Assembly: GCF_027571385.1 (NCBI RefSeq)
Contig: NZ_CP085636.1
Location: 2,542,001 to 2,606,000, forward strand
DNA: 64,000 nucleotides
Direction of reading: 5' to 3'
From: Shewanella sp. MTB7
GTDB lineage: Bacteria > Pseudomonadota > Gammaproteobacteria > Enterobacterales > Shewanellaceae
Shown here piece after piece: positions 31,627 to 55,730 of this stretch (its first letter is position 1; the number at the start of each line of letters is the position of its first letter). Both the position numbers and the translations under genes were made by a program. The notes beneath the pieces are model-generated. The model saw nothing but the letters and a program-made list of their open reading frames with translations. It was not told the DNA's origin and did not search any database.

Positions 31627-33347
31627 TAGCTTTTCTCCTTTTTGCTCAGCCACATTTCGTTCATCGCGCCGCCGCGAATAAGCATAGGGTAAACGTGTTC
31701 AGTCTGATCGACATTGATATCGACAAATACCAATTTATCTTTCATAGATAGCGCTCTTTCGAGTTCAGATTCAAGCTTAGCGGGATCGCTAATGGTGATC
31801 CCCACATGACCATAAGCTTCGGCAATTTTGGCAAAATTAGGTACTGAATCCATATAGGAGTGTGAATGACGACCTGAATAGATCATATCTTGCCACTGTT
31901 TAACCATACCTAAAAAGCGATTGTTTAGGTTGATGATTTTCACTGGGATATCATATTGCAATGCAGTTGATAACTCTTGAATGTTCATTTGAATCGAACC
32001 ATCACCGGTAACACAAAGCACGGTTTCATCGGGCATGGCAAGTTTGACGCCCATAGCTGCTGGAAGACCAAAACCCATGGTGCCCAGACCGCCAGAGTTT
32101 ATCCAACGACGTGGTTTATCGAAAGGATAATAAAGTGCGGCAAACATTTGGTGTTGACCCACATCAGATGCCACATAGGCATCACCATTGGTGAGTCTAT
32201 GTAAGGCTTCAATCACCTCCTGTGGCTTAATTTTATCCGTTGTCTTGTCGTAGGCTAAGCTTTTTTTAGCGCGCCATTGATTGATCTCACTCCACCAGAA
32301 ATCGACTGCAGCAACATCTTGAGTTTCTTCAGCCGTGGAGTCTAATAGGGATAACATTTCATCAAGGATACTATCCGCTGAGCCCACTATGGGGATATCC
32401 ACATGAATCGTTTTAGAAATTGAAGAGGGGTCGATATCTATGTGTAAAATTTTGGCGTTAGGGCAATATTTTTCAACATTATTGGTGGTTCTATCATCAA
32501 ACCGTACCCCTATACCAAAAATAAGATCACAATTGTGCATCGCCATATTAGCTTCATAACAGCCGTGCATACCTAACATGCCTAAGCTATTTTTGTGGCT
32601 ACCAGGAAATGCACCTAAGCCCATTAATGTGCTGACAACAGGAATGTTAAGTTTTTCTGAAAGCGCTAAAATCTGCTTGTCGCATTCGGAGATAACAGCA
32701 CCACCACCCACGTATAGTACCGGCTTCTTCGCGGCTAAAAGTGCACGTAAACCTCGGCGAATTTGCCCTTTGTGACCAGAAGTTGTTGGGTTGTAAGATC
32801 GCAGACTGATCTCTTTGGGGTACTCGTAATCAAACAATATCTCAGGATTCATACAATCTTTAGGCACATCAACCACCACAGGACCTGGTCTGCCACTGGC
32901 TGCGATAAAGAAAGCTTTTTTTATTATCTCAGGAATGTCTCTGGCATCGGTGACTAAGAAGCTGTGCTTAACAACAGGTCTTGATATACCTATCATATCG
33001 CACTCTTGGAATGCGTCATTACCGATTAAATTACTCGGAACCTGGCCCGAAACGATAACCAGTGGGATAGAGTCCATATAGGCGGTGGCAATACCAGTAA
33101 TAGTATTCGTAGCGCCGGGACCTGAAGTGACTAATACCACACCGACTTCACCTGTGGCACGGGCATAACCATCGGCCATGTGTACAGCGGCTTGTTCGTG
33201 ACGAACTAAGATGTGTTCAATTTTGGACTTTTCGTGCAGGGCGTCATAGATATCTAACACGGATCCGCCTGGATAGCCGAATATATGTTTTACGCCTTCG
33301 TCGATAAGTGAACGAACTATCATACTGGCGCCTGATAACTTCTCCAT
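31626..33347 (-). CDS. ilvI: Acetolactate synthase large (catalytic) subunit
   Basis: The 573-residue catalytic subunit of acetohydroxyacid synthase, a thiamine-diphosphate enzyme condensing two pyruvates, or pyruvate with 2-oxobutyrate. Motifs: [16 protein letters not shown] at the N-terminus, the catalytic Glu region [18 protein letters not shown] (about 45-62), and the ThDP motif [20 protein letters not shown] with [12 protein letters not shown] (about 430-470). Length matches IlvI (574). It is translated with ilvH via an overlapping stop/start. Upstream is a 170-base leader with a good sigma-70-like promoter (33526-33553). Confidence 0.95.
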
Positions 33348-36799: not shown

Positions 36800-39700
36800 A
36801 TGTTATCTGAACTTAAGTTTAAAACTCAGCTGTTAATGAGTTATGCGGTTATCTTATCTTTTATGTTTGTTATCGCGGTGGTGGTTTTCTTTAGCGTTAA
36901 ATCCCTAGAGGATGATCTGAATTGGGTTAATCACACTCACTCCGTATTAGATAAAGCAGCAAAAGTTGAAGCCTCAGCTGTCGATATGGAAACCGGAATG
37001 AGGGGTTATCTTCTAGCGGGTAAGGATGAGTTTTTATCCCCCTATGAGCAGGGCGACAAAAGATTTAACGAACTGATGGTCGTACTCTCCTCCGATGTCA
37101 GCGATAACCCAGCACAAGTCAGTTTACTTAAAGATATATCCGTCACGATTGACGAGTGGCACAGTAAAGTGACCAAGCCTGTGATCGCGTTAAGAACCGA
37201 AATTGGCAATTCCAAGTCTATGAATGACATGGCAAAAATTGTAAAACAGGCCCGTGGCAAGCAGTTTTTCGATAAATTTCGTTCTCAGATTGACCTGTTT
37301 ATTGCACGTGAAAATGAGTTAATGCTCAAACGCGAGAATAAGTTAACAGACAGTAGCGATTTAGATGAACTTAGGGAGTTAAATGCTTGGGTTCTTCATA
37401 TCTACCGAGTTATTGTTATGGCACAAAATTTGCTAGCCTCTGCGGTCGATATGGAGACGGGGATGCGTGGTTTCTTGCTATCAGGACAAGAGAACTTTCT
37501 CGACCCCTATAGAGAGGGAAGCCTTCGTTTTAATCAGTTAAGTAATGAGCTGTCCATGCTGGTTGCCGACAATCCCCAGCAAGTTGCACTGTTAGCACAG
37601 AGTCAAATCACCATAGATGCTTGGGCCAATGAGGTGGTGAAGTTTCAGTTAGCGCTGCGTCGTGAGATTGGCGATGCAAAAACCATGGAGGATATGGCCA
37701 ATCTTGTGGGCGAGGCGAGGCGAGGGGAAAGATCTATTTCGATAAATTCCGTCAGCAGATACAAACATTTAAAGACAAAGAGCTTGTGTTGTTGGCACAA
37801 AGGCAAGAATCTTTGGCGAATACTGAGTCCCTGTTAACTAATACGACTATTTTCGGCACTCTGTTAGCTATTTTTGTCGGGCTAGGGGTCGCGTTTAGGC
37901 TAACAAAACATATTGTGAATCAATTGGGGGGGAACTGACCTATATCGCCGAGATTGCCAGAAAAGTATCCAATGGCGATCTGAGTGTTGAGCTTAAGCAA
38001 AGTGGAGCTGCCCAAGGTATTTTTGCTGAGATTAAACAGATGCTGGTGACGCTAAAAGATAAGGCAAATTTGGCTCAGCGAATAGCTGTTGGAGAGTTAG
38101 ACCTGGTGGCAAAGCTTGCCTCAGACAAAGATGAGTTAGGCATGGCATTAAAAGTGATGCTGCAGAATTTAAATAATGTTGCCGATCAGGCCGATGCCAT
38201 AGCCTGTGGTGATTTTACTAAGGATGTGATGGTAAACAGTGAGAAGGACAGGCTGGGGATTGCCTTGCACGAGATGAAAACTCAGATAAAGCAACGTAAT
38301 GCTTCTTTGTCACGCAGTTTAGGTCTGAACCAAGGGATAGTGAACATTGCTGTCGATGCCATTATCTCGATAAGAGAGGATGGCACTATCTTATCGGTTA
38401 ATGACGCTACCGAGAGGATGTTTAAGCATTCAGCTGAGTCTCTTATAGGGCAAAATATTAAAATCTTGATGCCTGCCCCATTTCATCAGGAACATGATAC
38501 CTATCTTAATAACTACAAAACCACAGGCATTAAGAAAATCATCGGCATGGGGCGTGAGATGCAAGCCCTGCGGAGTGATGGCAGCACTTTTCCTATCTAT
38601 CTCTCAATCGGAGTGGTGAAACAAGGTGACGAAACCCTGTATACCGGATTTATTCGTGACATCACTCAACAGAAGAGTTTTGAGCAAGACATAATTAAAC
38701 GTGAAGCAATAAATCGAGGCATGGTCGATACTTGTCTCGATGCTATCCTGTCTATCTCATCACATGGTGAAATACTTGCCTGTAATAGCGTCGCCGAAAC
38801 TTTGTTTCAATATCGAAGCGAAGAGATTATGGGTAAAAAATCAATACTTTGATGCCAAGCCCTTTCTGCGAAGAGCATGATGATTACCTCAACAATTATC
38901 TGACTACAGGCATCAAAAAAGTCATAGGGAAAGGCAGAGAGGTCATTGGATTAAGAAAAGATGGCAGTACTTTCCCCATGTATCTGGCCGTTGGTGAGGT
39001 CAAGCAGGAAGATGGCGTCATTTTTACTGGCTTTGTGCGTGATATTACCAAGGAGAAGCAGTTTGAAAGCGATCTGCAACAGAGTAATGTAGATCTGATT
39101 AAACAAAATGAGTTAAAAAGCCAAGTGTCTCGCATTAATGACTTGACTCAAGGAGCATCAAATCTGATGGCGATGGCGGATGAGATCATCTCAGCATTAG
39201 CCGAGATGATGAAAGCGGGCCATGGCGTTATCTATATTTATGAACAAGGTGATGATGAACTCAGTTTATCAGGCAGTTATGCATTTAAGAAGAGAAAAGC
39301 GGTTTTACCCACAATAGGTATTGGTGAGGGTTTAGTTGGTCAATGTGCCAAAGAGCGGAAAACCATATTACTAACCCAAGTGCCTAGTGATTATATTCAG
39401 ATTAATTCTGGCTTAGGGCAAAGTACGCCCCTCAATGTCATGGTCGTTCCGGTGTTGTTTGAAGAGGAGTTGATCGGGGTGATAGAGTTGGCCTCCTTTA
39501 AAGGCTTTAATGATGAACAGGTCGAAGTTATAGAGCTTATCTCAACCAATCTGGGGATCGTGATTAATAATCTCAGAAATCAAGAGCGGACTCAGACACT
39601 GCTGCTTGAGACACAGAGGCAATCAGAGGAGTTACAGTCCCAGCAGGAGGAACTTAAGAGTTCAAATGAGAGTCTATTAGAACAAACACAACTGCTGAAA

Positions 39701-41041
39701 ACTTCCGAAGAGGAGCTCAAACAGCAAAGTGAAGAGCTCAAGGTTTCCAATGAGGAGTTAGAGGAGAAGCAAGTCTTCCTCAGAAGGCAAAAAAATGAGA
39801 TCGAAGCGGCTAAAGAGGACCTCACGACTAAGGCTGATGAGTTGGCCCTAGCAAGTAAATATAAGTCTGAATTTTTAGCTAACATGAGTCACGAGCTCAG
39901 AACCCCTCTCAACAGCCTATTGCTATTGGCTAAAGGGTTGGCCGATAACAAGAGCCAGCACCTGGATGAAACCGAGGTTGAAGATGCTAAGATCATCTTT
40001 GATGGCGGTAATAATCTGCTCTGTCTGATTGCTGGGGATGGCCGTATGGGGATTTATCTGGCACAAGAGTACCAACCTAGCGGCATCATTCTTGACATTA
40101 TGCTGCCAGATATCGATGGGCACCAAGTTCTCGAGCAGCTAAAGTTCAGTCTCAAAACTCGTCATATTCCCGTCGAGATTATCTCAGCCCACAGTGAAGA
40201 CAAGAATTTGGCTCTAGTTCAAGGTGCAATAGGGCTACAGACTAAACCTGTCACTCAGGAAACATTATTGACAGTGTTTGATGATATAAAAGCGTTCTGC
40301 TCCTCAGAATTACGTCATCTACTAGTGATTGAAGATGATGTCGGCAATCAAGCGTCAATTGTTAGATTACTTAAGGGCTGTGATATCGATATTAAATGTG
40401 TCGAAGAGCTGTTATCGGGTCATTATGATTGCGTCATACTGGACTTAGGTTTACCCGATATTAGTGGCTTTGAGGTGCTCAAAAAAATTGAAGCCAGTGA
40501 ATTGAAACGAGTACCCCCAGTGATCATCTATACGGGTAAGGAGATCACCGATGAAGAGCAAAGTGAGCTCGATGATGTCTCGCTTTTTCTCCACGATATA
40601 GAATCAAGATTCAGCAGTGATAGTCAGAAAAAAATTCACATGCTTCACGATGAAGATGCCATGTTTCAGGGGCGTAAAGTGTTAATTGTCGATGATGATA
40701 TGAGAAACACCTATGCCCTGTCAAAAAAATTGATTGAGTACGGGTTTGAGGTCGATATGGCTCACAATGGCAAGGAAGCTGTAGAACAGTTATTAGTGGA
40801 GAAAAACTTTGAACTGGTGTTAATGGACACCATGATGCCTGAGATGGATGGCTATGAGGCTACAAAACAGGTAAGAGCTATGAAACATTATAAACAGCTC
40901 CCTATCATTGCATTAACAGCAAAGACGATGCTAGAGGATAGAGAAAAATCATTACAATCAGGCGCCTCAGAATACCTAACTAAACCGATCGATTTTGAGA
41001 AGTTACTATCGATTATGCGGATCTGGTTATTCAAGCATTAG
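36800..41041 (+). pseudogene. Broken membrane hybrid histidine kinase (CHASE3 x2, HAMP, PAS x2, GAF, HisKA, REC x3)
   Basis: Three successive reading frames together encode one former protein. Segment 1 (36800 to about 37723): a membrane helix and two CHASE3-like repeats, each with SAVDMETGMRG. A third GGCGA unit at 37709-37723 shifts the frame. Segment 2 (to about 37932): the rest of CHASE3, the second membrane helix and the HAMP start; a G-run at 37926-37932 is one base short. Segment 3 (to about 38840): HAMP and two PAS domains; an A-run at 38835-38840 is one base short. Segment 4 (38849-41041): end of the second PAS, GAF, coiled coil, HisKA (SHELRTPLNSLLLLAKGLAD) and three receivers. The HisKA is joined directly to mid-receiver sequence (LCLI-AGDGRMGIYLAQEY), so the ATPase domain and the start of REC1 are missing. 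REC2 also seems to lack two short blocks. The last receiver is complete. The kinase cannot be functional. Confidence 0.85.
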
Positions 41042-43944: not shown

Positions 43945-44292
43945 ATGAAAAAAATATTACTAGTTGGTCTAATTACCAGTTTATTTCTGGCTCCAGCATC
44001 TGCTAAAAATCTTGACACAGACACAGCGCTTGGCATGGCAAGTTTAATGTTCTGTACAACAGTTTACAGTGAAAATGAAATGCAAATGGAGGGCACTATC
44101 GTGAGTCAGTCGATGAAGGCACATCAAAATGCTGGTATTGATGCAATGATAATGTCAAAAGAGACCAGTGAGCAACTAGATGAGCACATGGCTAAGTTTC
44201 AATCAGCGAGTACTGAGCAACAAATTAAATTATGTGACCAAGCTATTCAATTTGCGCGCGAAAGTGACTTTGTAAAAGTGAACGCGTCATAA
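43945..44292 (+). CDS. Small exported hypothetical protein, 115 residues
   Basis: I do not recognise this protein. It has a clear signal peptide (MKKILLVGLITSLFLAPASA, cleaved before KNLDTD), giving a mature protein of about 95 residues with two cysteines (in SLMFCTTVY and IKLCDQAIQF) that could form a disulfide. The mature part appears all-helical and Met/Gln-rich. Probably periplasmic. It is monocistronic: a terminator follows at 44328. Confidence 0.7.
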   Translation: MKKILLVGLITSLFLAPASAKNLDTDTALGMASLMFCTTVYSENEMQMEGTIVSQSMKAHQNAGIDAMIMSKETSEQLDEHMAKFQSASTEQQIKLCDQAIQFARESDFVKVNAS

Positions 44293-44327
44293 ATCAAATT
44301 TCCCATCGTTAATGATCTATATCTATG

Positions 44328-44367
44328 CCTCCTACTAAACTTTAATGATAGTAAGTAGGAGGTTGTT
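44328..44367 (+). terminator. Terminator after the exported small protein
   Basis: CCTCCTAC and GTAGGAGG, 8-base perfect arms around a 19-base loop, followed by TTGTT. Moderate support because of the long loop and short T tract. Confidence 0.5.
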
Positions 44368-44513
44368 AGACTTAAGACTCTCAAATTACTCCACATAACG
44401 GGTGTGCAACGTCATAAAAAGTTTTATGTTACTTTTCTGATGTTTACCTGCGTTTAGCGATGATAAATAGATTTTGAATGCTAAGACTTTTTCGCCCTAG
44501 ACTTGTTTCGAGT

Positions 44514-45452
44514 TTAATTTTTAAGTTGTTCAACAAAGTGATTAAATAAAACAGCACTCTTTTTTGGGGATTCAATCATAGGGAGGTGACCTGTGTTTTT
44601 AAGTAATATTACTTGAACATTATTGAGTAATGGACAAATCTTATCCAGGGCACTTTTGTCTAAAATTCTGTCTTTCTCACCCCATATAATCAGTACCGGA
44701 ACTTGAATTCTATTTAAGTAAGGGAGAAGATCATTATGGTGAAAATCATTAAATATCTTGTGATGTAATCGTTTTTTATGTGCCTGAAGTGCCAAGTGTG
44801 TTTGCTTTAGAAATTTTGGGATATGAGTTGACTTATAGAAAGTGTAGTTAAAGTATTCAATCGGATTTGTGCAATCAATCAATGGATTGGGACGGTTCGA
44901 AGCCAAATCACGAAACATATCGCTCTTAATTGGGCTATCGATACCTGCATTATCAAATAAAGTGACCGATAGAACTTCCTTGGGAAATAGGGCTGCATAG
45001 GTTGCAGCAATCTGTCCTCCCATAGAACTGCCAAGTATATGAAAAGGGGCTAGTTGGATTTTGGTAACAAACAAATGGACACGTTTAACCTGCGCTTCGA
45101 CACTGTAGTCGGCATCAAACGGTGAATCACTCTCTCCATGCCCAAGTAAATCCAATGCAATGATTCGATATTTTTTATTTAAAAATAACGACATTTGCAG
45201 CCAGTTATCCTTGTTTGCGGTAAAGCCATGGAGCATAAGGAGTATTGGTTTATCGTTTATTTTGTTGCTTATCATTACGTTATCTAGATAAACATAATGC
45301 TCACCAAGTAGAGTGATATGTTTACGGTTGAATCCAGAGAAATAACGGATGATGTAAGTTATTAATCGATATAGGTATGAGGGGATAAAATAGACAAAGA
45401 TTAAGGCAATTAGCAGTATTAGCATGAATGTAGATATAAAAAACCAAAACAT
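44514..45452 (-). CDS. Membrane-anchored alpha/beta hydrolase (lipase/esterase-like)
   Basis: A 312-residue alpha/beta hydrolase with an N-terminal hydrophobic anchor (about 1-24). Motifs: oxyanion-hole LLMLHGFTANKDNW (about 70-83), DLLGHGESDSPF (about 99-110), the nucleophile elbow LGSSMGGQIAA (Ser near 142), an acid in WGEKDRILDKS and the His in NTGHLPMIES. This resembles the lipase 1 type of Moraxella/Psychrobacter. The substrate is unknown. It lies next to luxR in the same orientation, about 180 bases from the luxR stop. A link to fatty-acyl metabolism for luminescence is only speculation. The gene is as A+T-rich as the lux genes. Confidence 0.82.
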   Translation of the reverse strand: MFWFFISTFMLILLIALIFVYFIPSYLYRLITYIIRYFSGFNRKHITLLGEHYVYLDNVMISNKINDKPILLMLHGFTANKDNWLQMSLFLNKKYRIIALDLLGHGESDSPFDADYSVEAQVKRVHLFVTKIQLAPFHILGSSMGGQIAATYAALFPKEVLSVTLFDNAGIDSPIKSDMFRDLASNRPNPLIDCTNPIEYFNYTFYKSTHIPKFLKQTHLALQAHKKRLHHKIFNDFHHNDLLPYLNRIQVPVLIIWGEKDRILDKSALDKICPLLNNVQVILLKNTGHLPMIESPKKSAVLFNHFVEQLKN

Positions 45453-45632
45453 GAAGTTCTCCTATTAAAAGTGACACGTTTTCCTACGCTAAACTAAAGA
45501 GTGTGAAACTATCACTATTGTTACAGTAGCATAGTATTTACTGTGAGCTTGATAATGTAGAAGATATGGCTTGCTTTAAGAGCGCTATCCTGATGATGAA
45601 TTAAGCTCTTTAGATATGATCATTGCCGCAGA

Positions 45633-46382
45633 CTATGATGAGGAAAATGGATTAATTATTCCTGTTAAGATCGATTTTGAGACACTTTGACAGCGATTGT
45701 TAGTACCAAGTTTGGCTTGTAAATTAGTAAGATGAAAAGAAATCGTTCTTTCTGAACGATCCAGTATTTTAGATATTTCCCAGGTGGTTTTACCTTCACA
45801 AATCCAAGCTAAACACTCTTTTTCCCTTTGTGTTAAATACGTACAAACTTTATCAATATTCTTATTAACTCTTTGATAACTATCTAATAATTCTGGAATG
45901 ATTAATGGGACGCAAATATAAGCATTTGAACATATAGTGTTTAATGATTTTGCATGTTTTGAATTAGCAAAACTGATTAATCCAAAACCTTGGTTCTTGG
46001 TATGTATAGGAAAGCTAAACCCTGAAAATAAACCGACACTTTTTGCCTGCTCTATTACATTTTGTTCTTTTTTTATATTATTGTGTTGTTTTAGCATACT
46101 CCAAATTATGGGTGAATAATTCGATATACAATAATCAAGAACAGGATCATGCTTAATTAGGTTTTCATTATTATAGTATTCCTTCCAATGTTTAGGGTAG
46201 TTATCTAAAATAAATAAGTCTGTTTTAATCATAGATGTTGGGTTTACTATAACAAATAGAAAATATTCACAACGAAGAAATAAAGTTAACTCAGATAGAC
46301 ATAAGTTAATGTCATTATTACTTTCAGATTGACGAAGTTTATTGTTAATTTCAAATACCATGCCAATGTCAAAATTATTCAT
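45633..46382 (-). CDS. luxR: LuxR-type quorum-sensing transcription activator
   Basis: A 249-residue regulator, the length of V. fischeri LuxR (250). An autoinducer-binding domain (about 20-165) carries the signal-pocket region with WKEYYNNENLIKHDPVLDYC (Trp, Tyr and Asp in canonical order). A LuxR-type helix-turn-helix (about 178-240) has LTQREKECLAWICEGKTTWE and then ISKILDRSERTISFHLTNLQ, ending NNRCQSVSKSILTG as in V. fischeri. It binds acyl-homoserine lactone and activates luxI-luxCDABEG through the lux box at 46545-46572. It is transcribed divergently from luxI, with 233 bases between the starts. Confidence 0.95.
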   Translation of the reverse strand: MNNFDIGMVFEINNKLRQSESNNDINLCLSELTLFLRCEYFLFVIVNPTSMIKTDLFILDNYPKHWKEYYNNENLIKHDPVLDYCISNYSPIIWSMLKQHNNIKKEQNVIEQAKSVGLFSGFSFPIHTKNQGFGLISFANSKHAKSLNTICSNAYICVPLIIPELLDSYQRVNKNIDKVCTYLTQREKECLAWICEGKTTWEISKILDRSERTISFHLTNLQAKLGTNNRCQSVSKSILTGIINPFSSS

Positions 46383-46544
46383 TTAAAATCCATTTCATGT
46401 ATATACTTAGATTGTGTGTCTTTTGTCATGCTAGCACATTACACTCTGTTCCGCATTGCTAACAACTGCTTATATTATATTATTAAACTAAAGTCGTAGT
46501 GGGAAGTAAACCTTGTAAAGATCTGTATTGATAAGAACAGTGTC

Positions 46545-46572
46545 GTAACCCTGTAAGATAATACAGGGTTAC
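46545..46572 (+). promoter_or_regulatory. Lux box (LuxR operator) of the luxI-luxCDABEG operon
   Basis: A perfect inverted repeat with 11-base arms GTAACCCTGTA and TACAGGGTTAC around AGATAA. Its core CCTGTA-N6-TACAGG is the same as the V. fischeri lux box ACCTGTAGGATCGTACAGGT. Its centre is about 34 bases before a TATAGT -10 (46590-46595), placing it near -43 from transcription start and overlapping -35, as expected for LuxR class-II-type activation. Confidence 0.85.
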
Positions 46573-46589
46573 GAATTACTCATGATTGC

Positions 46590-46595
46590 TATAGT
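46590..46595 (+). promoter_or_regulatory. Candidate -10 of the luxI promoter
   Basis: TATAGT, with no good -35 of its own; the lux box occupies that position, as expected for an activator-dependent promoter. A start near 46602 would leave only about 14 bases of leader before the luxI ATG. Confidence 0.5.
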
Positions 46596-46615
46596 GATTT
46601 CCAAAGGGAGGTGGT

Positions 46616-47197
46616 ATGACTATCATTATAAAAAAATCAGAGTTCCTTACTATTCCAGATAGAGAATATATTGGTTTGTTGCGCTTGCGTTATCAAGTAT
46701 TTATTTTAAGATTGCAGTGGGAATTAACTTCAGGGCTAGGTATTGAATCAGACCAATATGATAATGCGGATGCTAAATATATATACGCTTGCGATAATAC
46801 TGATAAAGTTAACGGTTGTTGGCGCTTACTACCTACTACCGGAGACTACATGTTAAGAACGGTATTCTCAGAATTACTTGGTGATCAAGATGTTCCTAAT
46901 GACCCTACTATTGTTGAGTTAAGTCGATTTGCGGTTGAAAAACAGAGTTCAACAATGAATGGGGTAAGTAGTGAAATAACAATGAAACTTTTCGAAGCTA
47001 TATACACTTATGCGATAAGTAATGGGATAAAAGAATATGTTTCAGTGACATCCACAGCTATTGAAAGGTTTTTGAAACGAATTAAAATCCCTTGCCATCG
47101 TATTGGTGATCAACAGGTTCATTTACTAGGTTCAACCAAATCAGTTGTGTTATCTATGCCTGTTAATGATATTTTTAAAAAAGCAGTGATATATTAA
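46616..47197 (+). CDS. luxI: LuxI-type acyl-homoserine lactone synthase
   Basis: A 193-residue autoinducer synthase, the length of V. fischeri LuxI. The conserved residues are in order: Arg and Phe in LLRLRYQVFILRLQWEL (about 22-38), acidic residues in ESDQYDNADAKY, Arg in GCWRLLPTTGDYMLR (about 68-82), and VELSRFAVEK (about 100). It makes an acyl-homoserine lactone from SAM and an acyl-ACP in the cytoplasm. The ribosome-binding site GGGAGG precedes the ATG. It is the first gene of the lux operon and so gives positive feedback. The acyl chain cannot be read from sequence. Confidence 0.95.
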   Translation: MTIIIKKSEFLTIPDREYIGLLRLRYQVFILRLQWELTSGLGIESDQYDNADAKYIYACDNTDKVNGCWRLLPTTGDYMLRTVFSELLGDQDVPNDPTIVELSRFAVEKQSSTMNGVSSEITMKLFEAIYTYAISNGIKEYVSVTSTAIERFLKRIKIPCHRIGDQQVHLLGSTKSVVLSMPVNDIFKKAVIY

Positions 47198-47322
47198 TAA
47201 TGTGAAGCTAAAGGTTATATATTTATAGTCGTGTAGTCTTAGAATTGACGATGTGGAGTTAAATAGGTGGTTGGTGTAAATGAATCTAGGTGTTAACTAT
47301 TATGTAAATAAAGAGGTTGTCA
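47198..47322. other. luxI-luxC gap (125 bases)
   Basis: A+T-rich, without a hairpin terminator or a second lux box, so cotranscription of luxI and luxC is expected. A 34-residue ORF starting at 47280 overlaps the luxC start in another frame and is not convincing. Confidence 0.4.
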
Positions 47323-48762
47323 ATGACAAAATGTATTCCGATAATAATTGGTGGTGTAATTCAAGACGTTGTAGGTGGAAAAACTAAAGAGCTAACATTA
47401 AGTAATGAACAGAAGGTTTTCATTCCTGTTCTTGATAGTAATCATATTAATTTATTAATAGGAAGCAAAATAAAAATCAATCTAACATTAAATCAAATAA
47501 TTAATTTTCTATATACTGTTGGACAGCGTTGGAAGAGTGAAGAGTATGCTCGTCGCCGAACATATATTAGAAATTTAAAACAGTGCCTTGGGTATTCAAG
47601 TGAAATGGCAAAATTAGAAGCAAATTGGATTGCAATGTTGCTTTGCTCCAAAAGTGCTTTATATGACATTGTAAAATATGACTTAGGCTCGCTGCACATT
47701 ATTGATGAATGGATTGCTCAAGGAGAGTGCTATGTTAAAGCATTTCCCAAGGGGAAGTCTGTGCACTTATTGGCTGGTAATGTACCTCTGTCAGGAGTGA
47801 CTTCTATTCTTAGGGCTATTTTAACTAAAAACGAGTGCATTGTTAAAACATCTTCAGCAGATCCATTTACCGCTACGGCATTGATATCAAGCTTTATTGA
47901 CACTGATGCTGACCACCCTATAACTCGCTCTATGTCGGTGATGTATTGGTCGCATGATGAAGATATTTCTCTGCCAAAAATAATAATGAAACATGCTGAC
48001 GTTGTGGTGGCTTGGGGGGGAGATGAAGCTATTAAATGGGCTGTTAAGTATACACCAGCTAATATTAACATTCTAAAGTTTGGTCCGAAGAAAAGCATCA
48101 GTATTGTGGATAACCCAGAAGATATGATTATAGCGGCAACGGGTGTAGCTCATGATATTTGCTTTTATGATCAGCAAGCATGTTTTTCTACCCAGAATGT
48201 ATATTACATAGGAGATAAAATAAGTTTATTTATTGATGAACTTGAAAAACAGTTAACTCTTTATGAGAATATTTTACCAAAAGGTTTTCAAAGTTTTGAT
48301 GAGAGAGCTGTTTTTAGTTTAACAGAAAAAGAATGTTTATTTGCAGGGTATAAAGTGAAAAAGGGGATAAACCAAAGTTGGTTAATTGTTGAATCACCTT
48401 TAAATGCACTCGGTAGTCAACCTTTATCACGTTCTGTCTATGTTCATCATGTCTCAGAATTATCTGACATACTTCCTTTTATTAATGGGAGTACTACGCA
48501 AACAGTCTCGATAACTCCATGGGAATCCTCATTTAAATATAGAGATCAACTCGCTGAACGTGGTGTTCAGCGTATCGTTGAATCAGGTATGAATAATATA
48601 TTTAGAGTCGGTGGTTCCCATGATGGTATGCGCCCTCTTCAGCATTTAGTTAATTATATATCTCAAGAGAGGCCATCTGATTATACAACAAAAGATGTTG
48701 CTGTAGGAATAGAACAGACACGTTATTTACAAGAAGATAAGTTTTTAGTTTTTGTCCCATAA
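47323..48762 (+). CDS. luxC: Long-chain fatty acyl reductase of bioluminescence
   Basis: The NADPH-dependent acyl-CoA/acyl-protein reductase that makes the luciferase aldehyde from the LuxE-bound acyl group. I start at the ATG at 47323 (479 residues) because GAGG lies 7 bases before it; a TTG at 47317 in the same frame is unlikely. The active-site Cys is in [13 protein letters not shown] (residue 287), matching V. harveyi Cys286. The nucleotide-binding part includes [16 protein letters not shown], and a family block is [19 protein letters not shown] (about 148-166). Length agrees with LuxC (about 478-488). LuxC forms a complex with LuxD and LuxE. Confidence 0.95.
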
Positions 48763-48778
48763 TTTAAAAGGAAATCAT

Positions 48779-49705
48779 ATGGAATGCTCAAGTCTTTGCT
48801 TCGCGATAGATCATGTTATTCATCTTGATAATGATAAAGAAATCAGAGTTTGGGAGACGTTACCAAAAGATAATACTGAGTTAAGGAATAATACAATTCT
48901 TATCGCTTCAGGTTTTGCTCGAAGAATGGATCATTTTGCAGGTTTAGCTGAATATCTATCAAGCAATGGTTTTCATGTTATTCGTTATGACTCACTTCAT
49001 CATGTTGGCTTGAGTAGCGGAAATATTAATGAGTTTTCAATGTCGATTGGTAAAGATAGTTTGCTTATCGTAATCGAATGGCTTAAGGGGCGTAATATTA
49101 ATAAGTTAGGTTTGATTGCTGCAAGCCTATCTGCTCGTATTGCATATGAAATAGCAAGTGAAGTAGATTTATCTTTTTTAGTGACAGCTGTTGGGGTTGT
49201 AAATTTGAGAGATACATTAGAAAGATCACTCAAGTATGATTACTTACAATTAAATATTGAAGACTTACCTGAAGATCTAGATTTTGAAGGTCATAATTTG
49301 GGCTCTAAAATTTTTGTGACTGATTGTTTTAAACATAATTGGGACACGTTAGAGTCAACAAAAAGTAAAATGAAAGATTTAAACATTCCATTTATTGCAT
49401 TTACTGCTAATAACGATGATTGGGTTAAACAATCTGAAGTGTTGGAGGTGATGGGTTGTATTACGTCTAAAAAATGCAAACTTTACTCCTTAATTGGCAG
49501 TTCCCACGATTTAGGTGAAAATCTTGTAGTACTAAGAAATTTTTATCAATCAGTGACTAAGGCTGCAATATCTTTGGATAATGGATCAGTAGATCTAAAT
49601 GTTGAAATTATCGAACCAGGGTTTGAAGTGTTAACGAGTGTCACAGTACAAGAGCGAAGATTAAAAAATAAAATTGAAAATGAATTTCTAGAGTTGATGA
49701 ATTAA
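48779..49705 (+). CDS. luxD: Acyl-ACP thioesterase/acyltransferase of bioluminescence
   Basis: The serine esterase that diverts tetradecanoyl groups from acyl-ACP to free fatty acid for the luminescence aldehyde. Start at 48779 (AAGGA 7 bases upstream), 308 residues, as in LuxD of other species (about 305). The nucleophile lies in IAASLSARIAYE (Ser116), the counterpart of V. harveyi Ser114; the oxyanion/early motif is IASGFARRMDHFAGLAEYLS (about 42-61) and the catalytic His is likely in GSSHDLGEN near the end. It follows luxC by 16 bases. Confidence 0.95.
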   Translation: MECSSLCFAIDHVIHLDNDKEIRVWETLPKDNTELRNNTILIASGFARRMDHFAGLAEYLSSNGFHVIRYDSLHHVGLSSGNINEFSMSIGKDSLLIVIEWLKGRNINKLGLIAASLSARIAYEIASEVDLSFLVTAVGVVNLRDTLERSLKYDYLQLNIEDLPEDLDFEGHNLGSKIFVTDCFKHNWDTLESTKSKMKDLNIPFIAFTANNDDWVKQSEVLEVMGCITSKKCKLYSLIGSSHDLGENLVVLRNFYQSVTKAAISLDNGSVDLNVEIIEPGFEVLTSVTVQERRLKNKIENEFLELMN

Positions 49706-49742
49706 TAGCCATATCCCGTGATATCAAATAAAGGAAAATATT

Positions 49743-50807
49743 ATGAAGTTCGGAAATATTTGTTTTTCATATCAGCCACCTGGTGAGACTCATAAACAGG
49801 TAATGGATCGTTTTATTCGACTTGGTGTTGCTTCGGAAGAGCTTGGTTTCGATACATACTGGACTCTTGAGCACCATTTTACAGAGTTTGGTCTTACAGG
49901 TAACCTTTTTGTTGCTGCAGCAAATCTACTTGGCCGAACTAGCACATTGCAAGTAGGAACTATGGGCGTAGTACTGCCTACGGCTCATCCAGTTCGTCAA
50001 TTAGAGGATGTGTTGTTATTGGATCAAATGTCTAAAGGTCGCTTTAACTTTGGCGTTGTCCGAGGTTTGTATCATAAAGATTTTCGAGTATTTGGCGTCA
50101 ACATGGAAAATTCACGTGGGATAACTCAAAACTTCCATAAAATGATCATAGATGGCGTAAAGACAGGAAGAGTAAGCTCTGATGGAGAGCATATTGAATT
50201 TCCTGAAGTTGAGGTTTATCCAACAGCTTATTCGAAGGAGATTGCAACGTGTATGACTGCTGAATCAGCCAGTACAACGGAGTGGTTAGCTGAACGTGGA
50301 TTGCCAATGGTGCTTAGTTGGATAATTGGAACCAACGAGAAAAAGGCACAAATGGATCTTTATAATGAGATTGCGACAGAGCATGGTCATGATATTACTA
50401 AGATTGACCATTGTATGACATTTATATGTTCTGTTGATAAAGATAGTAATAAGGCCCGTGAAATATGCCGTGCTTTCCTAGCTAATTGGTATAACTCTTA
50501 TGTTAATGCCACCAATATATTCAATGATAGCAACCAAACTCGTGGTTATGACTATCATAAAGGTCAATGGCGAGATTTTGTATTAAAAGGTCACACAAAT
50601 AGTAGAAAGCGTGTTGATTACAGTTATGAAATTAACCCTGTAGGTACACCTGAAGAGTGTATTACCATTATACAACGTGATATTGATGCCACAGGAATCA
50701 CTAATATTACCTGTGGTTTTGAAGCAAATGGTAGTGAAGATGAAATTGTGGATTCTATGGGGCGCTTTATGACTCAGGTGGCTCCTTTTTTGAGAAAACC
50801 TAGCTAA
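49743..50807 (+). CDS. luxA: Bacterial luciferase alpha subunit
   Basis: The catalytic subunit of the FMN-linked luciferase (TIM-barrel flavin monooxygenase), which oxidises FMNH2 and a long-chain aldehyde with O2 and emits blue-green light. 354 residues, as in V. harveyi LuxA (355). The catalytic His44 is in [10 protein letters not shown] (residues 41-50). The FMN phosphate-binding region includes [20 protein letters not shown], with Arg107 in VVRG. The mobile loop near residues 260-290 is present ([20 protein letters not shown]). GGAAAAT-type site before ATG. It pairs with LuxB. Confidence 0.97.
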
Positions 50808-50846
50808 TCATTAATATATTTAGTTAAATATAGTAAGGAACACACT

Positions 50847-51830
50847 ATGAAATTTGGATTGTTTTTCCTCAATTTTCAGCTCGATGGTATGACGTCAGAA
50901 GAAACCTTAGATAATATGGTTAATACAGTCTCTCTTGTAGATTCTGAAGAATATCATTTCGATACAGTTTTCATCTATGAACATCACTTTTCTAAGAACG
51001 GCATTATAGGTTCTCCTATTACAGCTGCAGGTTTTTTACTTGGGATGACTAATAAACTGCATATTGGTTCTCTTAATCAAGTGATTACAACTCATCACCC
51101 AGTGCGTGTAGCTGAGGAGTCAAGTTTATTAGATCAGATGTCTGAAGGTCGTTTTATTCTTGGTATCAGTAATAGTGAAAATGACTTTGAGATGGATTTT
51201 TTCAAGCGTCAACGTTCATCTCGACAGCAACAATTTGAAGCCTGTTATGACATCATTAATGATGCGTTGACGACTGGCTATTGCCATCCTCAAAATGATT
51301 TTTATGATTTTCCAAAAGTGTCAATCAATCCACATTGCTTTAGTGAAGGAGGTCCTAAACAATATGTTACTGCAACAAGTAAAAGTGTCGTTGAGTGGGC
51401 AGCAAAGAAAGCACTACCTTTGACTTTTAAATGGGATGATAGTCTTGTAGATAAAGAAAGTTATGCAGTGCTGTATAATAAAGTTGCTATGGAGCATGGC
51501 ATTGATACTTCAAGTGTGGAACATCAACTTACGGTTATTGTTAATTTGAATTCTGACGGTAATGTAGCTCGTGAGGAGGCTAAGGAGTATTTAAAGAATT
51601 ACATTTTAGAAACATATCCAGATATTGATCATGTTACTAAATTAAATTCAATTATTAGTGAGAATGCTATTGGTACTGATGATGATTATTATGCACCTAT
51701 TAAATTAGCCGTTGATAAGACTGGTGTTAAAAATATTTTGTTATCATTTGAATCTATGAAAGAACATTGTGATATTAAAGGTGTGATTAATATGGTAAAT
51801 GAAAAAATTGCTAGTAATATTAAGGCGTAG
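50847..51830 (+). CDS. luxB: Bacterial luciferase beta subunit
   Basis: Structural partner of LuxA, homologous to it but lacking the active-site loop; 327 residues, as in V. harveyi LuxB (324). It has the common N-terminus [40 protein letters not shown] with the His equivalent to LuxA His44/45, and [20 protein letters not shown]. The beta subunit has no catalytic site of its own but is required for activity and stability. It starts 39 bases after luxA with AAGGA upstream. Confidence 0.97.
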
Positions 51831-51918
51831 TATTTGTTAGTTTTTAAATAGTGGTAAGAATGTATTTGTCTGCCGCTATTTAAAGCTTTATTAATGATTT
51901 CGATAATTCAGGTTGTAT

Positions 51919-53049
51919 ATGAATACTCAATACATGGTTGAAAAACATCAAGTTATAGTAAGCTCAGAAATCGATGATCTTATATTCATGAGTAATCCAA
52001 ATGAATGGTCATTTGAAGAGCAAAAAGAGATTCAAGATAAACTTATCCTTCAAGCATTTAACTATCATTATAATAGGAATGAAGATTATAGGAACTATTG
52101 CATTACACAGCATGTTAATGAAAATATCACTTCAATTGATGATATTCCTGTATTCCCAACATCTGTTTTTAAATATATAAAATTACATACAGCTAGAGAG
52201 CGTGAGATTGAGAATTGGTATACAAGTAGCGGTACAAACGGTATGAAAAGTCATATTGCTCGCGATCGGCTAAGTATTGAACGATTACTTGGTTCAGTTA
52301 ATTTTGGAATGAAGTATGTTGGTAATTGGTTTGAGCATAAAATGGAGTTGGTGAATCTTGGTCCTGATCGTTTTAACACTAATAATGTATGGTTTAAGTA
52401 TGTGATGAGTTTGGTTGAGCTTCTTTATCCAACTGAATTTACAGTAGATGATGATATTATCAATTTTGAAAAAACAATGCATCACTTGTTTCGTATTAAT
52501 AGCACGACAAAAGATATCTGTTTAATCGGTCCTCCTTACTTTATTTATCTTTTATGTCAGTATATTAAAAAAAATAATATTATTTTTAATGCTGGGGGAC
52601 GATTATATATTATCACTGGTGGTGGTTGGAAATTAAATCAAAATGAGTCTTTAAATCGTGATGATTTCAATCAAATGTTGATGGAAACATTTCATCTTCA
52701 CGATATAAATCAAATTAGAGATACCTTTAATCAAGTTGAGTTAAATACATGTTTTTTTGAAGACGAATATCAACGAAAGCATGTTCCTCCATGGGTATAT
52801 GCTCGCGCTCTTGATCCTGTAACATTACTACCAGTTGCTGATGGTGAACAAGGATTATTGAGTTACATGGATGCATCATCAACAGGATATCCAGCTTTTA
52901 TTGTAACAGATGATATTGGCATCATTCATCATGTTAAAAGCCCTGATCCTTACCCTGGAACAAAAGTTGAAATAGTGAGGAGATTAAATACACGTGCACA
53001 GAAGGGATGTGCACTCTCTATGACGAAGGCTATTAAAGTAAATGGTTAA
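51919..53049 (+). CDS. luxE: Acyl-protein synthetase (fatty acid activation) of bioluminescence
   Basis: ATP-dependent enzyme that activates the fatty acid from LuxD as acyl-AMP and transfers it to its own cysteine before handing it to LuxC. Started at the ATG at 51919 (AGG 6 bases upstream), 376 residues; the frame could extend to a TTG at 51913. The acyl-accepting Cys is residue 364 in [14 protein letters not shown], the same number as in V. fischeri LuxE. The adenylating motif is [18 protein letters not shown] (about 97-114). Its stop overlaps an ATG (TAATG), although luxG probably starts 18 bases later. Confidence 0.96.
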
Positions 53050-53066
53050 TGCGATATGGTGGATAT

Positions 53067-53777
53067 ATGAAGATGAAATGTAACATATCAAGGATAGAGT
53101 CAACAAATAACAATATATATAAAATATATATTAAACTTCAACAACCTATTAGTTTTAAAGCTGGACAGTATATATATGTTTATTTAAATGATAGCAAGAA
53201 ACAACCATTCTCGATTGCTAGCTGTCCTACAGACAATAGTATGATTGAATTACATATTGGTAGTTCTAATAAAAACTGCTCTTTAGATACGATGGAATTC
53301 TTCGTTGATGCTTTAATGCACAATAGTACTATTGTAATTGATGCTCCACATGGAGAAGCATGGCTACGTGATGACAGTAACAAACCAATATTATTAATTG
53401 CTGGTGGCACTGGCTTATCTTATATCAACAGTATTCTTAGAAACTGTTTAAATCGAAGCTTCACTCAACCTATTTATGTTTATTGGGGGGTAAAAAATAG
53501 TGGTTTTCTGTATGCTGACGATGAACTGCAAGCATTATCTTACAAATACAGTAACTTAAAATATGTACCTGTGGTTTTAGAAGATGATGAAGATACGTGG
53601 TTAGGCAAGAAAGGAACCGTCATTGATGCCGTAATGGATGATTTTACCGTTCTTACTCTTTTTGATATATATGTCTGTGGGCCTAATCTGATGACAAAGG
53701 CGGCAAAAGAGCAATTAGTTGCAAAAAGAAATGCGAATTTAGATCAAATGTTTTCCGATGCTTTTGCATATATGTAG
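53067..53777 (+). CDS. luxG: NAD(P)H-flavin reductase of the lux operon
   Basis: Fre-family reductase that supplies FMNH2 to luciferase. Start chosen at 53067 (GGTGG upstream; MKMKCNISRIESTNNNIYKI aligns with the LuxG/Fre N-terminus), 236 residues. The flavin-binding motif is KKQPFSIASCPT (about 49-60) and the nucleotide site is LLIAGGTGLSYINSIL (about 109-124), with a C-terminal YVCGPNLMTKAAKEQL. Last gene of the operon; no terminator is obvious before the convergent GST gene. No luxF or rib genes follow. Confidence 0.95.
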   Translation: MKMKCNISRIESTNNNIYKIYIKLQQPISFKAGQYIYVYLNDSKKQPFSIASCPTDNSMIELHIGSSNKNCSLDTMEFFVDALMHNSTIVIDAPHGEAWLRDDSNKPILLIAGGTGLSYINSILRNCLNRSFTQPIYVYWGVKNSGFLYADDELQALSYKYSNLKYVPVVLEDDEDTWLGKKGTVIDAVMDDFTVLTLFDIYVCGPNLMTKAAKEQLVAKRNANLDQMFSDAFAYM

Positions 53778-53836
53778 TATTTTTGAACTGAGTATAGCGT
53801 CATTAAATCGCGGATTATATCCTAAGAAAAATAGAT

Positions 53837-54514
53837 TTAATCAATGTGAATCTTAGAACTTAAGGATTTGCTAAATACAAACTCCTCTTCATTATCGAGC
53901 CAGAGTGGATATTTCATCATTATGTTGATAAAAGAGGTACTTGATAGATGTTTGGCAAGCCACCTTCGCACATTTGGGCAAGGAGATGCGTCGAACCAGG
54001 TTTTATCCACATGGGCAAACTGTCGTACGAATGGGTAGATAGCATAGTCGGCGATACACGCTGTATGACTAAGTAAGTTATTGTGTTTCGTCAAAAAGTT
54101 TTCCAGTTGGGAGATAAACATCATGCCCTGATCGCGATAATGAGTTTGAGTGAATTCAGGGTATCTGTCAGCATATTTGTACCTGTCTAACCAAGGCTTA
54201 AACTCATGATCATTATTGCTGATTAAGCTCATGGCCACCGCTTGTAACTCCGGCTGCTTGGCGAGTAATAGGTCCCTAGGGTCGTTTTGCATTAAAGCCC
54301 AACGCATAATATCGATACTCTCATCAATCACTTGGTTATCTGCAGTGATGAGTATCGGCACGGTCCCCTTTGGAGATGCATTTAACAGGTGTGGAGGTTT
54401 ATTTTTAAGCATAATCTCCCTTAACATGACTTGAGTGCTGGATAGATAAATAGCAAGTCGAGCACGCATGGCATAGGGACAGCGTCTAAAAGAGTAGAGA
54501 GTGGCTAAAGACAT
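53837..54514 (-). CDS. Glutathione S-transferase family protein (Grx2-like N-terminus)
   Basis: A 225-residue cytosolic protein with a GST/thioredoxin fold. The ATG at 54514 is used because MSLATLYSFRRCPYAMRARL is the typical start; the frame extends to 54577 with an unlikely tail. The N-terminal CPYAMRARLAIY resembles glutaredoxin-2-type GSTs, followed by PKGTVPILITADNQVIDESI (the cis-Pro loop and glutathione gamma-Glu site, about 49-68) and a C-terminal helical domain (about 85-210). It could act as a thiol transferase or glutathione-dependent oxidoreductase. Physiological substrate unknown. It is convergent with luxG and divergent from trhO. Confidence 0.88.
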   Translation of the reverse strand: MSLATLYSFRRCPYAMRARLAIYLSSTQVMLREIMLKNKPPHLLNASPKGTVPILITADNQVIDESIDIMRWALMQNDPRDLLLAKQPELQAVAMSLISNNDHEFKPWLDRYKYADRYPEFTQTHYRDQGMMFISQLENFLTKHNNLLSHTACIADYAIYPFVRQFAHVDKTWFDASPCPNVRRWLAKHLSSTSFINIMMKYPLWLDNEEEFVFSKSLSSKIHID

Positions 54515-54734
54515 GGTTTTCTCTGGTGAGCAGCTTGAATTCGATACTATGTTGTGGTTTTTTTTATCAAAAAACAATTAAGATTTAATAACCTTACTTT
54601 TTATCTCTGTTTATTTTATGGTGACCCATGTAAGATTCTCGCTGTTTTTTGCGAGCCAGCTCACTATTTGGGTTGGTTTACCATTGAGTCAATATGCACT
54701 GGAGATTAAGCTCCAGCAAGCAGTAGAGGTTAGT

Positions 54735-55730
54735 ATGTCCCAAGTTGTTGTTTGTGCCCTTTATAAGTTTGTTTCCCTTCCTGGTTTTGAATTGATCCAG
54801 AAGCCCCTATTAACCGAAATGGAAAAATCAGGCATTAAAGGCACCTTGTTGTTGGCTAACGAAGGGATAAATGGTACGGTTGCAGGCTCACAAAAGGCAA
54901 TTGATAACTTGCTTAGTTGGCTGGCCGAACAACCAAGTCTTGATAATATAGTGCATAAGTTTTCGTTTGATGCAACCATGCCTTTTTACCGTACTAAGGT
55001 AAAACTAAAAAAAGAGATCGTGACCATGGGAGTAGAGGGAATTGATCCCCTGAAAGTGGTTGGCACTTATGTTAAGCCCAAAGATTGGAATGCGCTCATT
55101 TCAGATCCAGAGGTGTTACTGGTCGACACCCGTAATGAATATGAAGTGAAGATAGGGACCTTTAAAAATGCTGTCGATCCTAAGACCGACACATTTCGTG
55201 AATTTCCAGCTTATGTAAAAGAACATCTCGATCCTGCGAAACATAAAAAAGTGGCCATGTTTTGTACTGGCGGGATCCGCTGTGAAAAATCCACCGCTTA
55301 CCTTAAGGAGCAGGGTTTTGATGAGGTTTATCACCTTGAAGGTGGCGTGCTTAAGTATCTTGAAGAGGTTAAGCAGGAAGAGAGCTTGTGGCAAGGTGAG
55401 TGTTTCGTGTTTGATAATAGGGTTGCCGTTAACCATAATCTGGAAAAAGGTCAATATGATCAATGTAACGCGTGTCGTATGCCGATAACAGAGATTGAGC
55501 AAACCAGTGAGGCATTTGTTCAGGGTGTGAGTTGTCCTTATTGTATCGATACTATTTCAGATAAACAGCGTCAACGCTTTGAAGAACGCGAGCGCCAAAT
55601 GCAACTGGCAGATATACGTGGTGAGGCTCATATCGGTAGCGATGTCGGTGTGGTGATTCAAAACCGCCGAGAGTACAAAGAAAACCTTAAGAAAGCACAG
55701 CTTAAGGTTAATATAAAAAATAGAAATTAG
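54735..55730 (+). CDS. trhO: tRNA uridine(34) hydroxylase TrhO (YceA), rhodanese-like
   Basis: Prephenate-independent, oxygen-dependent hydroxylase forming 5-hydroxyuridine at the wobble position of tRNAs. Start at 54735 (AGAGG 6 bases upstream) gives 331 residues beginning [20 protein letters not shown]; the frame opens further upstream (54618) but with unrelated sequence. An N-terminal UPF0176 domain (about 1-95, [18 protein letters not shown]) is followed by the rhodanese domain with the active-site Cys in [20 protein letters not shown] (about residue 178). Near the C-terminus, CNACRMP and CPYC may bind zinc. Length fits E. coli YceA (350). Confidence 0.93.

Follow-up and report, generated by a model that had tools for sequence, protein, structure and literature searches.

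PMC6409340 describes the luminescence circuit of Aliivibrio fischeri, places luxI and luxR upstream of luxCDABEG in some species, of which A. fischeri is an example, and lists Shewanella among the luminous genera, as do PMC8301110 and PMC9332260. PMC1793995 makes use of published Shewanella hanedai LuxA and LuxB sequences, so that luciferase genes of this species must have been in databases by 2007, while passages of PMC3759921 and PMC6020299 contain nothing further on the locus considered here. This is a luxR-luxI-luxCDABEG locus at positions 45633 to 53777 of a 64,000-nucleotide stretch of the Shewanella sp. MTB7 genome (hereafter the window; contig NZ_CP085636.1, positions 2,542,001 to 2,606,000), the genome being a single contig of 6,367,435 bases. 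No account of this lux locus, or of the two lux sites in Shewanella discussed below, was found in searches of the open-licence PMC literature, a scope that leaves out most subscription papers and so does not show the locus to be unpublished.

The locus comprises a luxR gene read leftward (minus strand) and, facing it, luxI-luxCDABEG read rightward (plus strand), with all frames open. Its features, including those of the control region (AHL, acyl-homoserine lactone; aa, amino acids), are the following.

45633..46382, minus strand: luxR, AHL-binding transcription activator, 249 aa (Pfam Autoind_bind 3.7e-26, GerE 1.4e-19)
46543..46574, no strand assigned: 32-bp inverted repeat with 13 pairs, enclosing the lux box (terminator scan, minus strand)
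46549..46568, plus strand: lux box (predicted LuxR binding site) CCCTGTAAGATAATACAGGG, with an exact CCTGT-N8-ACAGG core at 46550-46567
46590..46595, plus strand: predicted -10 element TATAGT of the luxI promoter, exactly 21 nt past the lux box
46616..47197, plus strand: luxI, AHL synthase, 193 aa (Pfam Autoind_synth 4.1e-32)
47323..48762, plus strand: luxC, long-chain fatty acyl reductase, 479 aa (NF052251, 891.5 bits versus a cut-off of 750)
48779..49705, plus strand: luxD, acyl transferase, 308 aa (NF052253, 559.7 bits versus 420)
49743..50807, plus strand: luxA, luciferase alpha subunit, 354 aa (NF052254, 720.2 bits versus 600)
50847..51830, plus strand: luxB, luciferase beta subunit, 327 aa (NF052255, 589.6 bits versus 500)
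51919..53049, plus strand: luxE, acyl-protein synthetase, 376 aa (NF052244, 726 bits versus 550)
53067..53777, plus strand: luxG, flavin mononucleotide (FMN) reductase, 236 aa (NF052252, 375.3 bits versus 340)

The initial annotation had reported a complete luxR-luxI-luxCDABEG set with intact reading frames, and both statements hold: Pfam names all eight proteins above cut-off, the curated NCBIfam cut-offs are passed by all six structural proteins (LuxC, LuxD, LuxA, LuxB, LuxE, and LuxG), and every frame is open. The luxC, luxD, luxA, luxB, and luxE genes are contiguous on one strand, each above its curated family cut-off, and luxI, divergent from luxR, heads the lux operon with which it is predicted to be cotranscribed, as in the A. 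fischeri type of quorum-sensing arrangement. Eight such genes in such an order cannot be chance. Judged from sequence, the locus is almost certainly a working luminescence operon of the A. fischeri type that resides in the chromosome of a Shewanella, a reading that rests on the open frames, the Pfam and NCBIfam cut-offs, the conserved residues, the geometry of the lux box and -10 element, the single LuxI and LuxR, the ratios of nonsynonymous to synonymous substitution (dN/dS), and the occupation of the same site in S. hanedai.

The catalytic residues previously assigned, LuxA His44, LuxC Cys287, LuxD Ser116, and LuxE Cys364, are all in place, their numbering being right with ATG starts at 47323 (luxC), 48779 (luxD), and 51919 (luxE). 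The program-made frame list begins luxC, luxD, and luxE at an upstream TTG and luxG at an upstream ATG; later ATG starts were adopted for these four genes by homology and upstream sequence, and from them each frame remains open with one final stop. LuxC Cys287 lies in QQACF, a motif found in 17/17 aligned rows; LuxD Ser116 lies in ASLSAR, with (A/S)SLSAR in 17/17; LuxE Cys364 lies in KGCAL, with KGC in 16/16. In LuxA, E43, H44, and H45 are present in 17 of 18 aligned rows (that end is missing from the 18th) and D113 in all 18. LuxA has one match in the window genome, and the LuxC family has two further weak ones, of 30 and 28 bits versus 376 bits for luxC itself. Cryptic luminescence is known in the Vibrionaceae, and the genes here might likewise be intact while producing no visible light. 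With the frames intact, 6/6 structural proteins above curated cut-offs, and dN/dS low for each gene (see below), we regard such a dark locus as very unlikely.

The nearest named LuxA match, at 94% identity, is that of S. hanedai (JCM 20706, NZ_VKGK01000005.1; genome G041). The S. hanedai operon has the same luxR/luxICDABEG order, lux box, and -10 element and occupies the same genomic site, between an alpha/beta hydrolase gene and the genes for a glutathione S-transferase (GST), trhO, and a porin, with matching neighbors on both sides; it differs in protein sequence, identities ranging from 65% (LuxR) to 94% (LuxA). Flanking the lux genes in the window, and outside the system, are:

44514..45452, minus strand: left neighbor, alpha/beta hydrolase (adjoins gst without lux in Shewanella woodyi [G125] and in genome G062)
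53837..54577, minus strand: right neighbor, GST-like protein (matched at E <= 1e-40 in 120/129 Shewanella genomes)

The initial annotation had remarked on a linkage of luxR and luxI to luxC as in A. fischeri but outside Vibrio. The linkage stands; its occurrence outside Vibrio is not new, because S. hanedai has this operon too, in the same location. The flanking genes are 77 to 90% identical in DNA to those of S. hanedai, and the two are therefore separate species. The window genome, whose assigned genus includes the genomes of S. hanedai and S. woodyi, is also distinct from S. woodyi. Between them, dN/dS for the eight lux genes runs from 0.055 (luxA) to 0.187 (luxR), with luxI at 0.096, denoting selection against amino acid change. 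The synonymous distances (dS) of the lux genes are 0.57 to 1.24, versus 0.54 to 0.90 for four of the five flanking genes compared (the fifth, a sensor kinase gene, gives 2.43). From the shared site and these values, the operon probably predates the split of the window species and S. hanedai and has since been kept under selection.

Compared with A. fischeri itself, the locus has the same luxR-luxICDABEG gene order, the same divergent luxR, and a lux box 21 nt from TATAGT, but the proteins are 52 to 83% identical and the host genus is another. The hexamer and the spacing are identical in A. fischeri, Aliivibrio sifiae, and S. hanedai, so that the lux box stands at the distance from the luxI -10 element expected of an A. 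fischeri-type quorum-sensing system. Its CCTGT-N8-ACAGG core has a single exact match in the window and occurred in 1 of 100 shuffles (mean, 0.01). The outer arms of the surrounding inverted repeat are incompletely kept in S. hanedai. LuxR is 65% identical to its S. hanedai counterpart, 58% to that of A. sifiae, and 52% to that of A. fischeri; for LuxI the figures are 82% (S. hanedai) and 70% (A. fischeri). The luxI and luxR genes are the sole matches found in the window genome to PF00765 and PF03472, respectively (E <= 0.001). A LuxS homologue is also present, whereas the AinS family PF17327, which in the A. fischeri circuit provides a second AHL system acting upstream, had no match in that genome in a search whose control likewise matched nowhere, so that absence is not shown.

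Several observations weigh against a fully A. fischeri-like control. LuxR and LuxI pass the Pfam cut-offs but match NCBIfam models only below cut-off. The CCTGTA-N6-TACAGG pattern has a single genomic location, but so has the backward control pattern; uniqueness of the lux box alone is therefore no proof, and the case rests on its position. The full A. fischeri lux-box 20-mer had no match with up to three mismatches, and another spaced pattern, with one mismatch allowed, had its sole match at 32960, missing the site. A candidate CRP site in the control region was rejected as no better than chance, an equally good one being found in 582 of 1,000 shuffles. LuxR is also the most diverged part of the system, at 65% identity to S. 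hanedai and with a dN/dS exceeding that of the other seven genes, and its ligand could for this reason differ from the expected one. It is thus conceivable that the structural genes work while light is not mainly under LuxR/LuxI control at the lux box, for example through a diverged LuxR with a changed ligand or through other dominant regulators. The presence of LuxS and the existence in S. woodyi of a luxCDABEG operon without adjoining luxRI (see below) would fit such a situation as well. The lux box and promoter geometry have been kept, however, and the dN/dS values of luxR and luxI also count against this alternative, which is improbable.

If the locus operates as in A. fischeri, LuxI would make an AHL, probably a short 3-oxo-acyl form like that of A. 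fischeri, and at high cell density the liganded LuxR would bind the lux box at 46549-46568 and recruit RNA polymerase to the luxI promoter. This promoter would drive luxICDABEG, with positive feedback via luxI. Fatty aldehyde would be supplied by LuxCDE and reduced FMN (FMNH2) by LuxG, and LuxAB would emit the light.

Among 129 Shewanella genomes searched, LuxA was matched at E <= 1e-50 in three: those of the window, S. hanedai, and S. woodyi. Genome G125 was taken as S. woodyi on the basis of its LuxC, which a 37-row LuxC tree joins to S. woodyi A8R7L4 by a very short branch. In S. woodyi light is run by the SwoI/SwoR pair. Its genome shares with the window luxCDABEG and a lux box ahead of luxC, here with one mismatch and beginning 193 bases before the luxC frame, but the operon lies at another chromosomal site (4.43 Mb) and has no luxI or luxR beside it. 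The window LuxI had no match in the S. woodyi genome at E <= 0.001; the sole LuxI-family gene found there is a distant one at 3.67 Mb, preceded by a different lux-box-like palindrome (two mismatches).

The lux site of the window species and S. hanedai is empty of lux in S. woodyi, and that of S. woodyi is empty of lux in the window genome. The hydrolase and GST genes are neighbors, with no lux between them, in both S. woodyi and G062; the tblastn matches lie 694 bases apart in the former, where the gap contains a 113-aa frame, and 225 bases apart in the latter. GST lies beside trhO without lux in all 12 GST regions fetched, two of which (S. woodyi and G062) also have the hydrolase beside GST; in the other 10, the 20 kb retrieved contain GST-trhO but no match to the hydrolase. 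Conversely, in the S. woodyi lux region (L024, 8646-15981), a stretch about 420 bases upstream of the lux box matches, at 80% identity, the 95 C-terminal codons of a 286-aa frame. Because the window genome holds this frame open (L081, 10067-10927) in a stretch with no lux genes, the S. woodyi operon probably adjoins a gene remnant. The intergenic DNA on either side of lux, in the window as in S. hanedai, matched the lux-free sites only in short stretches at the level of chance, and the insertion ends are therefore not placeable to the base.

Phylogenies of LuxA and LuxC had been expected to show the origin of the operon. The trees, from which pUTK21 sequences were excluded where concatenated, gave a divided answer: LuxCDABE splits the three Shewanella, but smaller gene sets do not reject a single clade. 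The 15-row LuxCDABE tree unites the window with S. hanedai (100/100) and puts S. woodyi with Aliivibrio (95/95), and a forced Shewanella clade of three is rejected by the approximately unbiased (AU) test (P = 0.019). The 37-row LuxC tree pairs S. woodyi with the A. sifiae group (96/93); the window sequence and that of S. hanedai belong there to an unresolved group that includes other Aliivibrio. These results suggest two arrivals of lux in Shewanella, as a hint rather than proof. Specifically, there may have been at least two entries from the Aliivibrio lineage, a scenario to which we give evenly balanced credence: one of a complete luxRI-luxCDABEG unit, in the window species and S. hanedai, between hydrolase and GST; and one, in S. 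woodyi, of an operon devoid of luxRI, on arrival or by reduction, in which the lux box was kept and control passed to a distantly related LuxI/LuxR pair. A single ancient gain, after which the S. woodyi operon would have changed position and lost luxRI, is a serious possibility that we nonetheless hold with some doubt. It is mildly rejected by the larger sets, LuxDABE (AU P = 0.034) as well as LuxCDABE, but not by LuxAB (P = 0.065), LuxE (P = 0.20), or LuxC (P = 0.37); S. woodyi and the window pair also branch in a different order from one gene set to another. The S. woodyi LuxC placement also counts against a single gain, although in the 15-row LuxC tree its pairing with A. sifiae falls to 49/14; the reciprocally lux-free sites are compatible with either history.

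The operon type is well known and its arrangement is common to S. hanedai, the contrast with S. woodyi being the only part beyond routine. The locus adds one more luminous-type Shewanella with a self-contained quorum switch and, with S. hanedai, offers against S. woodyi a natural comparison of a light operon that has its own luxRI with one that lacks it, which can help in asking how horizontally acquired operons become rewired to host regulators.

The lux region has a G+C content of 33.7%, versus 40.8% in the remaining window. Carriage by a mobile element was considered and found unsupported: the window contains no tRNA gene, Rfam gave no match above gathering score at 44000-55000, the only direct repeats within either flank are two short two-copy ones (16 and 14 nt), both on the left, no words of 9 or more bases are common to 45453-45640 and 53770-53870, and no transposase or integrase was noticed, by reading only, in the frames examined.

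Other lux loci encountered in the searches show some variation. In Aliivibrio finisterrensis (L007, 7486-15628), luxR-luxI lies downstream of luxG rather than ahead of luxC; luxI is preceded by a lux box with an exact core and luxC by one with a single mismatch. In A. sifiae ATCC 33715 (L006, 5918-7492), one-piece matches extend only over LuxR residues 76 to 245 and LuxI residues 43 to 191, so that in this record both genes may be disrupted in their 5′ parts. The LuxC, LuxD, and LuxG encoded by the Pseudomonas plasmid pUTK21 (L017) have the same identities to the window proteins as those of A. fischeri, and its lux genes are probably an engineered reporter. A LuxC from the betaproteobacterium Iodobacter ciconiae (P0008), 76% identical to that of the window, groups with its Aliivibrio logei counterpart (89/79) and may reflect another jump of lux. 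Another LuxC (P0046), on a 5.95-Mb contig, is shortened to 267 aa, matches 54% of the query at 73% identity, and possibly represents a truncated luxC. Elsewhere in the window, at 36800-41041, three successive frames (36800-37837, 38040-38852, and 38849-41041) resemble, by reading, fragments of a single large hybrid sensor kinase that frameshifts may have interrupted.

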